Shown here piece by piece: positions 6,938 to 11,032 of a DNA stretch of 14,212 nucleotides. Below the pieces are notes generated by a model that saw only the letters and a list, made by a program, of their open reading frames with translations, searched no databases and had not been told where the DNA came from. Within the stretch, counting starts at the first letter, position 1. Each line of letters starts with the position of its first letter. Made by a program: the position numbers and the translations under genes. Source of the DNA: Anaerolineales bacterium (GTDB lineage: Bacteria > Chloroflexota > Anaerolineae > Anaerolineales > Villigracilaceae); the NCBI GenBank assembly GCA_028689195.1, contig JAQTWR010000028.1, forward strand, positions 1 through 14,212, in the 5' to 3' direction.

Positions 6938-9628
6938 ATGCAAGATCTATTTAAGTCCCGCGACGTATTAAAGGTCGGCAATAAGCAATACGTCATTTTC
7001 CGCCTCGATGCGCTGGAGAAGGCAGGCTTGGTGAAATTAGCCAAACTGCCGTATTCGATTCGGATCGTGCTCGAAGCCGCGCTGCGTCAGTGCAATGATA
7101 AAGAAATCACGCAGGCGGACGTCAAGAACATCGCCGCATGGTCGCCGAAAGGCGCGCGCCCCGGCATTCCGTTTTTGCCTGCGCGCGTGGTCATGCAGGA
7201 TTTCACGGGCGTGCCCGCGGTTGTGGACCTCGCTTCGATGCGCTCCGCCGTGGCAAGACTCGGCGGCGACCCGAAGAAAATCAATCCGCTTGTGCCTGTT
7301 GACTTGGTCATTGACCACTCGGTGCAAATTGACTTCTTCGCTACGAACGACGCGCTCAACCGCAATGCCGCACTCCAATTCCCGCGCAACCGCGAGCGTT
7401 ATGAATTTTTGAAATGGGGACAAAAGGCATTCAGCAATTTCCGCGTTGTGCCGCCGATGACGGGTATCGTTCATCAGGTAAATCTCGAAAATCTCGCTGA
7501 AGTCGTGATGACCAAAGTGGACGGCAATGATGTTCTGTCCTTCCCCGATACCGTCGTTGGCACGGACTCGCACACCACCATGATTAATGGTCTGGGCGTG
7601 GTGGGTTGGGGCGTGGGCGGAATTGAAGCCGAAGCCGTCATGCTCGGTCAGCCGATGGACATGCTGCTGCCCGACGTCATCGGTTTCAAACTCTACGGCA
7701 AACTCAACGAAGGCGTGACCGCCACCGACCTCGTGCTGACCGTCACTCAAATGCTGCGCAAGAAAGGCGTGGTGGATAAATTCGTCGAGTTCTATGGCGA
7801 AGGTCTTAACAACATGTCGCTGACCGACCGCGCAACGATTGCGAACATGGCGCCCGAATACGGCGCGACGATGGGCTACTTCCCCGTGGATGATGAGACT
7901 CTCCGCTACATGCGCTTGACGGGTCGCTCCGAAGAAACTGTCGCCCGCACCGAAGCATACATGCGCGCGCAGGGACTCTTCCGCGAAGCGAACAGCCCTG
8001 AACCCGAATTCACCGACACGCTCGAACTCGACCTCGCCTCCGTCGTGCCCTCCCTCGCGGGACCGAAACGCCCGCAGGATAGAGTCGCGCTCGCGGATAT
8101 GAAAGACACCTTCCGCAAAGCGCTGACCGCTCCCGTCAAAGATCGCGGATATGAACTCAGCGGCGAAGCATTGAACCGCGAAGCGACCTTCGGCACGAAC
8201 GGCGGTTCACAGCAGATGAAACATGGCGCGGTCGTTATCGCGGCGATTACATCCTGCACGAACACATCCAATCCTTCGGTGTTGATTGCGGCGGGACTGG
8301 TCGCAAAGAAAGCCGTTGAAAAAGGACTCAATGTCAAGCCGTACGTGAAGACCTCGCTTGCGCCCGGCTCGCTCGTCGTGACCGAATATCTCAAACACGC
8401 GGGACTCATCGAACCGCTTTCGCAACTGGGCTTCAACGTCATTGCGTATGGCTGCACCACTTGTATCGGTAACTCGGGTCCGCTGCCCGTGGAAGTTGCC
8501 AAAGCCGTGACCAGCGGCGACCTCGTCGCTTCGGCGGTCATCTCGGGCAACCGCAACTTTGAAGGGCGTGTTCATCCGCTCGTCAAGGCGAACTTCCTCG
8601 CGTCGCCGCCGCTCGTCGTGGCGTATGCGCTTGCGGGCACAGTTGATATTGATTTGAACAACGAACCGCTCGGCACGGGCGCGGATGGCAATCCCGTTTA
8701 CCTTAAAGATTTGTGGCCCACTCAAAAAGAGATTGGCGACCTCGTCGCGTCCAGCGTGCAAAACGCGATGTTCAAAGATAAATACGCGGACGTGTTCGGC
8801 GGCTCGGATATGTGGAAGGAAATTAAAGTCCGCGAAGGCGACCTGTTCGAGTGGAGCGAAGAATCAACCTACATTCATCATCCGCCCTTCTTCCAATCTG
8901 TCACGTTGGATGTGCCGCATATTCAGGAAATCAAAAACGCGCGCGTGCTTGGCGTGTTCAGAGATTCGATTACCACCGATCATATCTCCCCTGCGGGAAA
9001 TATCGCGGCGGATTCTCCCGCGGGAAAATTCCTGCAAGAGCGAAATGTCCAGCCCAAGGATTTCAACTCCTACGGTTCGCGCCGTGGCAATGACCTCGTG
9101 ATGGCGCGCGGCACGTTTGCGAACATCCGCTTGAAGAATGTGATGGTTGCGCCGAAGGAAGGCAACTGGACGAAGTACGACGGCGTGGAAATGCCGATCT
9201 TCGACGCGGCGATGAAGTATAAGGAAGCGGGTGTGGCGACGATCGTGTTGGCGGGCAAGGAATACGGCACAGGCTCCAGCCGCGACTGGGCGGCGAAGGG
9301 TCCCATGCTGCAAGGCGTGAAGGCAGTCATCGCGGAATCGTTCGAACGTATTCACCGCTCCAATCTCGTGGGCATGGGCGTGCTGCCGTTAAGATTTGCG
9401 GCTAGTCAGAACGCCGAGTCGCTGGGCTTGGATGGCAGTGAAGAGTTCACCATCGAAGGTCTGAATGACAACATCCAGCCGCAAAGCGAAGTCACCGTGA
9501 AGGCGAACAAGACTGACGGCAAGGTGATTGAGTTCAAGGCGACGGTGCTGCTGAACACGGATGTGGAAGTGAATTACTATCGCAATGGAGGAATCCTCCA
9601 TACGGTACTACGCAACTTGGTCAAGTAA
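6938..9628 (+). CDS. acnA: Aconitate hydratase A (aconitase)
   Basis: Interconverts citrate and isocitrate through cis-aconitate in the TCA cycle, using a [4Fe-4S] cluster. The 896-residue length matches AcnA/IRP-type aconitases. Cluster ligands are visible as C440 in [11 protein letters not shown] and C506/C509 in [14 protein letters not shown]. The N-terminal catalytic part contains [20 protein letters not shown], and the C-terminal swivel domain contains [21 protein letters not shown] and [15 protein letters not shown]. The start ATG has AAAGGAG 6 nt upstream. A terminator begins 17 nt after the stop, so it is probably monocistronic. The leader can pair with the ribosome-binding site. The odd point is the 3' end: the last 25 codons including the stop are repeated with silent changes after the next gene (10434-10508), so this gene's 3' end may have been replaced. 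Confidence 0.97.
9554..9576 (+). repeat. 23-bp direct repeat, left copy (inside the acnA 3' end)
   Basis: These 23 bases are identical to 10434-10456 and encode NTDVEVN plus two bases of the next codon. Homology continues to the stop codon at 85% overall (64 of 75 bases) but is perfect only in this block, and it stops abruptly on the upstream side. The pair brackets 880 bp in the manner of a recombination core or attachment-site duplication. Confidence 0.75.
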
Positions 9629-9645
9629 AAGTAATTGGTAATTGG

Positions 9646-9678
9646 AAGACCTTCAAGTTTAGGCTTGGAGGTCTTTTT
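9646..9678 (+). terminator. Intrinsic terminator after acnA
   Basis: AAGACCTTCAAG (9646-9657) pairs with CTTGGAGGTCTT (9664-9675) over 12 bp with one G-U pair, loop TTTAGG, and the stem runs into a TTTTT tract. It ends acnA transcription just before the NYN gene's own promoter. A duplicated GTAATTGGTAATTGG lies between the stop codon and the stem. Confidence 0.9.
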
Positions 9679-9705
9679 GTAAGGTAAAATAGAAAAAATG
9701 TTTTC

Positions 9706-9733
9706 TTGACAGCTTGGCGTTTTGGACGATAAT
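9706..9733 (+). promoter_or_regulatory. Near-consensus sigma-70 promoter for the NYN gene
   Basis: TTGACA (9706-9711), a 16-bp spacer and GATAAT (9728-9733, five of six) make the best -35/-10 pair in the window. Transcription would start near 9740. The other promoters seen here rely on an extended or bare -10 without a -35, so this one differs from its surroundings, in keeping with an acquired module. Confidence 0.7.
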
Positions 9734-9781
9734 AGAGGCATATCCCCCAGTAGTAGTTGGCTGTTTTGACGAACCTGGTGC

Positions 9782-9803
9782 GAGACCGCCATGAGGCGGT
9801 CTC
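9782..9803 (+). other. Perfect hairpin in the NYN leader (attenuator or small RNA end)
   Basis: GAGACCGCC (9782-9790) and GGCGGTCTC (9795-9803) form a 9-bp perfect stem with an ATGA loop. It lies about 40 nt after the expected transcription start and 15 nt before the NYN start codon, and is followed by TGTGTTT, a weak U-rich tract. It could be a weak terminator releasing a roughly 70-nt RNA, an attenuator, or a protein-binding or cleavage element. No known RNA family is recognised. Confidence 0.5.
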
Positions 9804-9818
9804 TGTGTTTAAGGGCTT

Positions 9819-10433
9819 ATGAAAACAAATATCTACATTGATGGCTTCAACTTCTACTACGGCTGTATCAAAGGCACGCCCTACCATTGGCTGGATGTGG
9901 CGAAGATGTGCCGCTTGCTGCTTCCCAATGATGAAATCCTTTCCATAAAGTATTTCACTGCTCTTGTTGAAGCCCGCCCAAACGATGTTGACCAGCCAAT
10001 CCGCCAGCGAACTTTCCTGCGCGCTCTCCAGACCATACCGAATCTTGAAATTATTTTGGGAAGTTTTTTATCTCATGAAGTGAAAATGCCGCTTTCACCG
10101 CTTGGAAGCGGATTTGCCACAGTCATCAAAACAGAAGAAAAAGGCTCTGACGTCAATATTGCCACGCATTTGCTTTTGGATGGATTTAGAAATGCTTACG
10201 AACTTGCCGTAGTCGTTTCAAACGACTCTGATTTGCTCCTGCCGATTCGAGTGGTTACAGAACAGTTTGGAAAGCCTGTCGGCTTGCTCAATCCACAAAA
10301 GCATGTCAGTTTGGCGCTCTTGCCGCACGTTCAATTTGTCAAAAAGATTCGCGGCTCGGTTTTGAAAAATAGTTTGTTTCCATCCGTTATGAGCGATGAG
10401 AATGGACAATTCTCGAAACCTGATGATTGGTAA
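9819..10433 (+). CDS. NYN-domain (PIN-like) putative ribonuclease
   Basis: A 204-residue protein of the NYN/LabA-DUF88 family, PIN-like nuclease folds with conserved acidic residues. MKTNIYIDGFNFYYG gives D8 and N11, EKGSDVNIATHLLLDGF gives D111, and VVVSNDSDLLLP gives D136 and D138, a complete set for metal-dependent RNA cleavage. The C-terminus ends KPDDW, which looks natural for this family, so the protein seems full length. The start ATG has AAGGG only about 3 nt upstream, a short spacing. It has its own promoter and leader hairpin. Its TAA stop abuts the second acnA tail, which lies in the same reading frame. Base use is more AT-rich than in acnA or clpC, suggesting acquisition. Target and biological role are unknown; function is inferred from the family. 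Confidence 0.88.
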   Translation: MKTNIYIDGFNFYYGCIKGTPYHWLDVAKMCRLLLPNDEILSIKYFTALVEARPNDVDQPIRQRTFLRALQTIPNLEIILGSFLSHEVKMPLSPLGSGFATVIKTEEKGSDVNIATHLLLDGFRNAYELAVVVSNDSDLLLPIRVVTEQFGKPVGLLNPQKHVSLALLPHVQFVKKIRGSVLKNSLFPSVMSDENGQFSKPDDW

Positions 10434-10456
10434 AACACGGATGTGGAAGTGAATTA
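10434..10456 (+). repeat. 23-bp direct repeat, right copy
   Basis: Identical to 9554-9576 and starting at the base after the NYN stop codon. With the left copy it delimits an 880-bp unit containing an acnA tail, terminator, promoter, leader hairpin and the NYN gene. Confidence 0.75.
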
Positions 10457-10508
10457 TTATCGTAATGGAGAAATTCTCCATACGGTGTTGAGGAATTTGG
10501 TGAAGTAA
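10434..10508 (+). pseudogene. Second copy of the acnA 3' end (24 codons plus stop)
   Basis: The 75 bases align without gaps to acnA 9554-9628 with 64 identities. Of 11 differences, 10 are silent; the only amino-acid change is G to E in [17 protein letters not shown]. It has no start codon or body and is read as the displaced or incoming tail of an aconitase gene. Right after it come a short degenerate tandem stretch (GAGAGTAGATACTAGAGAATAG) and a strong terminator, so it carries a gene-end context of its own. Confidence 0.85.
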
Positions 10509-10530
10509 GAGAGTAGATACTAGAGAATAG

Positions 10531-10563
10531 AAAAACGGAGTGGCGAAAGTCCACTCCGTTTTT
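10531..10563. terminator. Bidirectional intrinsic terminator between the acnA tail and hicA
   Basis: AAAAACGGAGTGG (10531-10543) and CCACTCCGTTTTT (10551-10563) form a perfect 13-bp stem with loop CGAAAGT, with a T run on either strand. It can end plus-strand transcription through the NYN gene and acnA tail, and minus-strand transcription of hicBA, whose last stop is five bases away. Confidence 0.9.
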
Positions 10564-10568
10564 AATTG

Positions 10569-10805
10569 CTATTCTTCGTACACTTTCAAAAACTCATCCC
10601 GTGAAATTCCGCTTTGGGAGAGAATTGTCCGCAGCGTGGAACTTTTTATTGTACGGTGATTAGGCATGGTCAAGGGCGTATTTGTCCCATCCGCGTTTTG
10701 GCGCAACATGGCAATATGATTCCCCTCTCGAACCAACCGAAAGCCAAGTTTTTCAAGAGCCTTGATGACTTTTGCTTTCGGCGCGTCAACGGGAAACTTG
10801 GGCAT
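10569..10805 (-). CDS. hicA: HicA-family mRNA interferase toxin
   Basis: A 78-residue HicA-type toxin with a double-stranded-RNA-binding-like fold that cleaves mRNA. The conserved layout is present: VIKALEKLGFRLVREGNHIAML with the catalytic-type histidine at position 30, then TMPNHRTIKSSTLRTIL and SGISRDEFLKVYEE. Length is normal for the family. It overlaps the upstream hicB by one base (TAATG), so the two are translationally coupled, with the antitoxin first and the toxin second. It converges with the NYN gene across a shared terminator. The active residue set looks intact, so the toxin is probably functional. Confidence 0.9.
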   Translation of the reverse strand: MPKFPVDAPKAKVIKALEKLGFRLVREGNHIAMLRQNADGTNTPLTMPNHRTIKSSTLRTILSQSGISRDEFLKVYEE

Positions 10806-11032
10806 TAAACCGCTACTCCTGCTTCAGCGATAAATGCTTCCAATACGGGCGTTTCAAAATTTAACACGTCTTTTCCAAATGTTTCGATATGAAATTGAAT
10901 GGCAGATGTTACGTCTGCAAGGGCTTCTTCGTAAGTGTCGCCTTCCGCAACCACTATGCCTTTTAATCCAAGCGGGTAAGCCACGTAGCCATTGGGATGT
11001 TTCTCAACGATAATTTTAAACTGTTGTAACAT
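10805..11032 (-). CDS. hicB: HicB-family antitoxin (short form)
   Basis: A 75-residue HicB antitoxin predicted to bind and neutralise HicA. The partial RNase H-like core is recognisable in PNGYVAYPLGLKGIVVAEGD followed by TYEEALADVTSAIQFHIETFG. The usual LPGC-type loop reads PLGLKGIVV here, a mild deviation. The protein ends soon after the core, so it lacks the extra C-terminal ribbon-helix-helix or HTH DNA-binding domain of longer HicB proteins; autoregulation, if any, would need another route. AGGAG lies 6 nt before the ATG, and a TATAAT box lies just upstream. Confidence 0.88.
   Translation of the reverse strand: MLQQFKIIVEKHPNGYVAYPLGLKGIVVAEGDTYEEALADVTSAIQFHIETFGKDVLNFETPVLEAFIAEAGVAV

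Follow-up and report, generated by a model that had tools for sequence, protein, structure and literature searches.

In Escherichia coli, prophage e14 has replaced the 3' end of icd and displaced the old end, known as the icdC remnant; e14 encodes an integrase and uses a fixed att site. In fungal mitochondria, the mORFs of Glomus (atp6, atp9, cox2, nad3) and Allomyces are nuclease ORFs within the 3' portion of a gene, where a foreign C-terminal end restores the gene and the native end lies downstream (PMC3630166, in excerpt). For displaced effector ends in the T6SS clusters of Vibrio cholerae, gain by homology-facilitated illegitimate recombination or merodiploid formation has been proposed (PMC5361080, in excerpt). 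Type III toxin-antitoxin systems (ToxIN, CptIN, TenpIN) are laid out as promoter, RNA, terminator and RNase gene (PMC5086642, in excerpt), and the AbiF ncRNA (RF03085) is a small RNA with a terminator which precedes a toxin gene and regulates the toxin (PMC12373285, in excerpt).

The locus analyzed here lies in 14,212 nucleotides from an Anaerolineales bacterium (contig JAQTWR010000028.1), called the window, and all features given below are on its + strand. The acnA gene (6938..9628; Pfam Aconitase and Aconitase_C) is complete including tail 1, and the insertion is found at its 3' end. A repeat search gave one direct-repeat family at the locus with a spacing of 880 bp: tail 1 (9554..9631), the left copy and functional acnA 3' end, and tail 2 (10434..10511), a displaced acnA tail that starts right behind the NYN stop. 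The two tails are identical over their first 23 bp and diverge beyond, with 85% identity overall (66 of 78 bases). Their local alignment scores 96, whereas 200 mononucleotide shuffles reached 27 at most. Of the 72 coding bases 11 differ, 10 of the changes being silent, and the residue is kept in 23 of 24 codons. These results bear out the preliminary description, which had reported a perfect 23-bp repeat bracketing a NYN unit at the acnA 3' end and 11 differences, and its view that the tails come from different acnA genes is supported. Tail 1 is followed by a hairpin and T-run (9646..9678), by eye the acnA terminator, with a similar sequence after acnA in G016, while terminator scoring placed a terminator-like inverted repeat 3' of tail 2 (10531..10563). 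Difference counts were used in place of trees, for which the signal in 72 bp is too small; among 57 other acnA tails, the nearest to tail 2 of the window's genome (G000) is tail 2 of G036 with 6 differences, and the nearest to tail 1 differs at 11.

From its sequence, the unit that moved can be delimited as a discrete cassette of ~0.75 kb, consisting of a promoter, a ~65-nt two-hairpin RNA and a NYN gene, between acnA tails of different alleles. It extends from an AT-rich stretch before the promoter through the NYN stop (9680..10433), as judged from a left edge conserved in unrelated places and from the flanking repeats. Scoring identified a sigma-70-like promoter, TTGACA-16-GATAAT (9706..9733), and a terminator-like second RNA hairpin with a weak T-run (9782..9803, also seen in the fold), although promoter-like and terminator-like sites occur in shuffled sequence too, with a mean of 1.4 of each kind. 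The structured RNA occupies 9739..9812 and the NYN-domain nuclease gene, encoding 204 aa, 9819..10433. The latter is the sole ORF of at least 100 aa between the repeats, and Pfam matched it to NYN only. No recombinase was found by Pfam among ORFs of at least 100 aa in the unit, in line with the earlier statement that it carries no integrase.

The gene product is a predicted NYN-family (PIN-like RNase) protein. It matches Pfam PF01936 with 30 bits (curated cut-off 24.2) and PADLOC model HEC-09 over residues 4-204 (E 3.5e-37); no NCBIfam model matched. The predicted structure has the fold of the MARF1 NYN RNase with the active-site aspartates conserved, and among the matches listed in the fold search the top structures are NYN proteins and neither ToxN nor other toxin folds occur. 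A sequence profile found no solved structure at E 0.01. At E 1e-20 the protein has 7051 homologues.

Related cassettes are found at other genes. In 14 of 54 cassettes tested, direct repeats flank the unit; among ordinary ORFs the count is 4 of 595 (p 3e-13). The repeat threshold of 41 was chosen after the first loci had been examined, the lengths of sequence compared differ slightly between the two sets, the background ORFs come from two genomes and the cassette loci are not independent. L179 and L180 were left out because they share the places of L178 and L171, L181 because it lies at a contig end and L177 because it has no NYN; L184 and L191 were skipped for their short flanks. Most of the repeats are gene ends, and the genes vary, namely acnA, glmS, hisA, an acetyltransferase, a DUF1156 methylase and a type I specificity subunit, an assignment made without L209 and L214; the L214 repeat had no Pfam match. 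The L173 repeat comes from DNA that follows a lyase gene, and those of L171 and G026 correspond to no known gene end. No flanking repeat was found in 40 of the 54, including L176 (G029) and L172 (G038), and we assume that these lost their repeats with age. Two ends from different alleles are present at acnA in G000 and G036 and at hisA in L223, whereas glmS, L178, L189 and L193 give no clear picture; the pattern of codon changes resembles decay rather than two alleles at glmS (2:3), the acetyltransferase (3:2), L189 (5:4) and L193 (5:11). The cassette is also seen at a 5' gene head. In L189, L190 and L193 the NYN precedes a DUF1156 gene, in keeping with HEC as short for Hma-embedded candidate. 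Insertion with regeneration of the gene tail, as previously described, is supported. The cassette is not a cargo specific to acnA, since it lies beside several unrelated genes, some of which have their own ends duplicated.

Insertions recur at the 3' end of acnA across the genomes compared. A DNA search detected extra acnA tails in 5 of 57 genus genomes, and tblastn on fetched loci added G064 (E 0.011) and G030; further family genomes fetched after a weak second acnA match (L124-L129) had no second tail. The junctions lie ~32 to ~384 bp before the stop and differ per unit, and G122 has a recent-looking displaced end, a 129-codon fragment. As a control, 673 ORFs in 400 kb from each of two genomes, G032 and G026, were screened for displaced gene ends of 36 residues that lack an ORF. 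Such ends were seen for acnA of G032 and five others; four of these five were inspected, of which three are longer homologous stretches and one is without a gene end. Second acnA tails at E 1e-3 are present in 6 of 51 genomes, these being the genomes with a fetched acnA end in the genus where the pattern was first noticed (Fisher p 3e-5 against the control). Units without NYN and without the cassette RNA also sit between acnA tails; the preliminary description had proposed a search for other cargo bounded by acnA-tail repeats. Relatives lacking NYN do carry both tails, which it had named as contrary to its reading, but with other cargo between them. Two further candidates were rejected: the NYN cassette as seed of the other acnA units, as these gave no full-scoring RNA leader and weak, largely palindromic hits (best 18.2 bits), and clpC as downstream neighbour of acnA, as the two do not adjoin where both are on one long contig (e.g., G021).

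We lean towards the reading that this is an acnA-end cassette which spreads with a piece of the neighbouring gene and encodes an RNA/NYN RNase pair for toxin-antitoxin function or defence. The insert would have carried the functional acnA tail, and the resident one would have been displaced behind NYN together with its terminator. Spread might occur via recombination or homing-like repair in the neighbouring gene, which would stay whole. Against this reading are the 40 cassettes that lack flanking repeats, the decay-like codon changes at four sites and the acnA tails that flank other cargo. A stronger version, which we find rather doubtful, is that the ~65-nt RNA and NYN jointly move their own gene, as a self-spreading element of <1 kb that has no known transposase, homing endonuclease or integrase and brings a spare end as the price of entry into a gene end; it may also be an unnamed RNA-controlled toxin/defence family across several phyla. 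A serious possibility, if not the expected one, is passive gain of the type proposed for the Vibrio effector ends, with a donor gene end and cassette taken up by homology at one end and illegitimate joining at the other, so that the cassette is common because it is addictive or protective and not because it moves itself. The scattered acnA junctions, the same scar with other cargo at acnA, the recent-looking end in G122 and the allelic tails all agree with such gain. However, in 12 of the 14 repeat-flanked cassettes the right copy begins 0-56 bp 3' of the NYN stop (600-700 bp searched), and random donor ends are not expected this close.

We consider it improbable that the RNA does no more than attenuate NYN in cis, in which case the unit would be an ordinary regulated gene. 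In the aligned loci the RNA is located shortly 5' of the NYN start and terminates in a terminator-like hairpin, as an attenuator would. On the other hand, it has its own promoter-like sequence, a second copy is present in L204, L218 and L226 (scanned without L211, which has the same leader as L210), and in L198 and L200 it lies 3' of NYN on the opposite strand, convergent.

Since it is duplicated in three loci and convergent in two, the RNA is in all likelihood a separate small RNA. Model R1 scores 75.6 bits on the window, which is among the sequences used to build it. Covariation was found in the alignment, with two of five measures weak (double-change pairs equalled in 22 of 500 shuffles and further pair types in 90 of 500). 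G000 and G036 have 7 additional bases in hairpin 1, and in the minimum-energy fold of the window RNA this hairpin deviates from R1. Rfam 15 gave no match to the RNA over the loci searched, with sub-threshold or plasmid RNAI hits only. The order promoter, RNA, Rho-independent terminator, RNase gene is present, with a T-run that is weak in the window and longer in other loci, and this arrangement points to a type III-like module of an RNA and an RNase, serving as a toxin-antitoxin or in defence. In such a pair, in which the RNA would control a toxin or a nuclease active against phages, the RNA would be made in excess, hairpin 2 would halt most transcripts before NYN, and the nuclease would be held in check by the RNA.

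Site-specific integration at the 3' end of acnA through a trans-acting recombinase, as for e14 at icd, is very unlikely in our view. The acnA tail has been used repeatedly, with the tail restored each time, and the 23-bp tail start is identical between both tails in G000 and agrees at 22 of 23 positions in G036. Yet this start differs between G000 and G036, there is no common junction or core, no clear conserved silent-site block was seen by eye in the acnA tail, and the cassette uses other genes as well. Additionally, no PF00589 integrase is near acnA among the matches listed, and no close acnA tail was found in viral contigs, phages (best 50% identity) or plasmids (61% best among the matches listed). 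Rejected as candidates were a fixed att core, as junctions differ by unit and by gene, a palindrome in the acnA tail as recombination core, which by eye is not kept in relatives, and a role of the acnA tail as attP in any of these three sets, whose weak matches, where annotated, are other acnA genes. The preliminary description had offered site-specific insertion or a double crossover; recombination that brought in an acnA tail with NYN and left the resident tail is still a candidate, but not a single fixed att core. Local tandem duplication with decay, or an assembly chimera, has next to no probability: the direct repeat has two copies as these would produce, but 10 of 11 differences are silent, as had been argued against a recent duplication, and the junction TAA|AAYACGG between NYN stop and acnA tail recurs in a second assembly (G036, contig C120), which makes the chimera at 10434 considered earlier unlikely.

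If the spreading-cassette reading is true, the locus is a bacterial counterpart of the fungal mitochondrial elements that restore the entered gene, and a source of some duplicated gene ends in genomes. It would also link a structured RNA without an Rfam 15 match in the loci searched to a large NYN family for which PADLOC has a candidate model only. Whether the RNA is an antitoxin, a guide or a part of mobility is a testable question.

Compared to icd/e14, the cassette likewise replaces the end of a TCA-cycle gene, but it has neither an integrase nor a fixed att site. HEC-09 is a protein-only model matched by the NYN, and the RNA and duplicated gene ends are outside it. As in AbiF, a small RNA and terminator precede the gene, while both protein and RNA are different. 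The likeness to type III systems is one of layout, with the elements in the same order; the RNA is repeated in L197, an E. coli plasmid (2.6 copies of 33 bp). Unlike in those systems, the protein is NYN/PIN-like, and NYN is absent from the excerpted review text (PMC5086642). The window has the RNA as a single copy, while some relatives have it duplicated with its own promoter-like sequence or convergent. A literature search covering few subscription papers found no description of the RNA/NYN pair. In the V. cholerae T6SS case, a module also enters via homology in the upstream gene and the old 3' end is shifted downstream, but effector loci are affected there and housekeeping and defence genes here (PMC5361080, in excerpt). 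Like the mORFs, the cassette brings a nuclease-type ORF to a gene 3' end together with a duplicated end that restores the gene; those are organellar endonuclease ORFs (LAGLIDADG in atp6), whereas the cassette carries a bacterial predicted NYN RNase-type protein and a structured RNA (PMC3630166, in excerpt). It also differs from them in occurring at a 5' gene head as well, and target cleavage is hypothetical here.

The acnA 3' end is present twice in the window, as a functional tail (9554-9631) and as a displaced tail behind the NYN stop codon (10434-10511), which a direct-repeat search placed 880 bp apart. Pairwise comparison of these two tails gave 23 identical bp and differences at 11 of 72 coding bases, one of which alters a residue, which bears out the preliminary description of two acnA tails around a NYN gene. 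The interval holds a terminator after the functional tail (by eye), a promoter at 9706-9733, a hairpin at 9782-9803 and the NYN gene (9819-10433, Pfam). Just 3' of the displaced tail, on the reverse strand, a HicA toxin gene (Pfam PF07927) and a small HicB-like gene, its partner by position (10569-11032), are more toxin-antitoxin cargo at the acnA site.

Another genome of the same genus, G036, shows the same order of acnA tail, terminator, leader, NYN and tail, and shares the junction TAA|AAYACGG between the NYN stop and the tail. Fourfold-site divergence between the two genomes is similar for NYN (0.37) and for its neighbours acnA (0.40), part of secA (0.45) and add (0.51). Their displaced tails differ at 6 of 72 bases and their functional tails at 12. 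Within each genome the first 23 bp of the tails agree (all positions in the window's genome, 22 of 23 in G036), yet this block differs between the genomes, which points to probable exchange or conversion in the block and not to simple duplication and decay, as had been argued from the window. As an oddity, G036 contigs C38 (L053) and C39 (L052) each overlap the start of C120 (L050) by 109 bp, and C38 terminates in a 107-codon acnA fragment.

A discrete cassette of RNA and nuclease exists, and the window holds one copy (9680-10433). Comparison of the flanks of the cassettes first located by a leader-derived pattern revealed direct repeats that are ends of different genes. With a single method applied to all loci, flanking repeats were found at 14 of 54 distinct cassette loci versus 4 of 595 ORFs, and the scores were bimodal (41-210, then at most 25); a duplicated neighbouring stretch accompanies the cassette in a quarter of cases. 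Repeats occurred in 7 of 8 relatives of at least about 80% identity versus 7 of 46 others, as expected if the spare gene end decays. Measured from the NYN stop, the right copy starts at 0, 0, 46, 23, 8, 9, 46, 17, 14, 56, 20 and 40 bp in 12 repeat-flanked loci and at 563 and 145 bp in the remaining two of the 14. Target genes assigned by profile include glmS (L174, L177), GNAT (L178), hisA (L223), a type I specificity subunit (L202), an aromatic amino acid lyase (L173; repeat beginning at the stop codon) and DUF1156 (L189, L190, L193). In these last three loci it is the 5' end of the gene after NYN that is repeated. In G001 a relic (L177 6036-6445, reversed locus) has lost NYN and keeps the RNA leader downstream of glmS, flanked by two glmS ends.

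The NYN protein of the window matches Pfam NYN and PADLOC HEC-09. Its AlphaFold2 model (mean pLDDT 85.1) has MARF1 NYN domains and VPA0982 as the best solved-structure matches among those listed. Fifteen sequences all share KTEEKGSDVN and the aspartates D136 and D138. A leader-derived pattern scanned over a collection of genome contigs hit eight stretches, every one from a record titled Chloroflexi, Anaerolineae, Anaerolineales or Anaerolineaceae, with NYN behind the leader in seven and the leader alone in L177. NYN relatives were found in 22 of 400 genomes across the order (E 1e-40), in 48 of 400 across the phylum (E 1e-30, at most five per genome), and in 122 plasmid records (1e-15).

For the RNA, 24 leaders were aligned, and the structure tested for covariation had been named after viewing the alignment; 96.7% of cells were paired and 33 were changed on both sides. 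The covariation score was reached by none of 500 shuffles and was lost when partners were slid, while two further measures were weaker (reached by 22 and 90 of 500). The RNA model matched in 25 of 32 further loci carrying a NYN homologue; at E 0.1 it had no match in L196, L197, L199, L201, L216, L222 and L224, some of which show hairpins by eye. Second RNA copies (L204, L218, L226) and a position convergent with NYN (L198, L200) argue that the RNA is a gene of its own. No matching Rfam family was found in the 16 sources searched. On L197, a small E. coli plasmid, the RNA portion consists of a 33-bp repeat (2.6 copies) followed by a terminator; with this tandem hairpin-RNA array (836-952) and a NYN homologue, the plasmid offers a convenient copy for laboratory work.

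The acnA 3' end has been used as a site repeatedly. When the displaced tail was searched at DNA level against 57 genomes of the genus, extra acnA tails were found in G000 (the window's genome), G036, G032, G073 and G075; tblastn of fetched loci added G030 and, weakly, G064 (E 0.011). A tail-profile search of 150 family genomes gave G156, G135, G122 and G103, together with a fragment located away from acnA in G107. Fragments range from ~32 to ~384 bp. The cargo between tails differs among genomes, with some gene names assigned from ORFs by eye: a TIR/LGFP gene, a TumE toxin and a HEPN/nucleotidyltransferase pair between tails 2 and 3 of G036 (L050 1113-4338), a response regulator/kinase/ABC unit (G073, G075, G032), and a HupE-to-FAD-oxidoreductase unit (G030, G032, G075). 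Other cargo bounded by acnA-tail repeats, a prospect raised in the preliminary description, thus turned up as several unrelated units among genus and family genomes. The empty acnA site it envisaged for the NYN cassette was looked for among relatives and none was found; G025 fits an empty site for the G073 unit, since its single tail runs straight into sequence resembling, by eye, that 3' of the G073 displaced tail. No integrase near acnA was among the matches listed.

Two observations concern related arrangements. G103:C1 (L119 3894-4567) carries, away from acnA, an acnA tail and terminator nearly identical to those of acnA on another G103 contig, a DUF433-like gene (by eye) and a second short tail, possibly the end of a large island. 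In G026 (C1:579811-584993), a displaced end of another gene, 32 residues long and 84% identical, lies ~3.9 kb downstream of it; the homology reaches further upstream.

Two explanations compete for what drives the insertion. That the cassette has tight edges speaks for an active route, i.e., self-driven homing; the displaced acnA tails that also surround unrelated cargo speak for passive recombination, with the cassette retained as addictive or protective. A donor gene end probably arrived together with the cassette, because the tails are allelic at acnA, hisA and L190. The cassette resembles in this respect the fungal mitochondrial mORFs, in which a donor gene end accompanies the insert (PMC3630166). 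By its layout, RNA plus NYN might be a toxin-antitoxin system, comparable with the type III systems (PMC5086642) and AbiF (PMC12373285).
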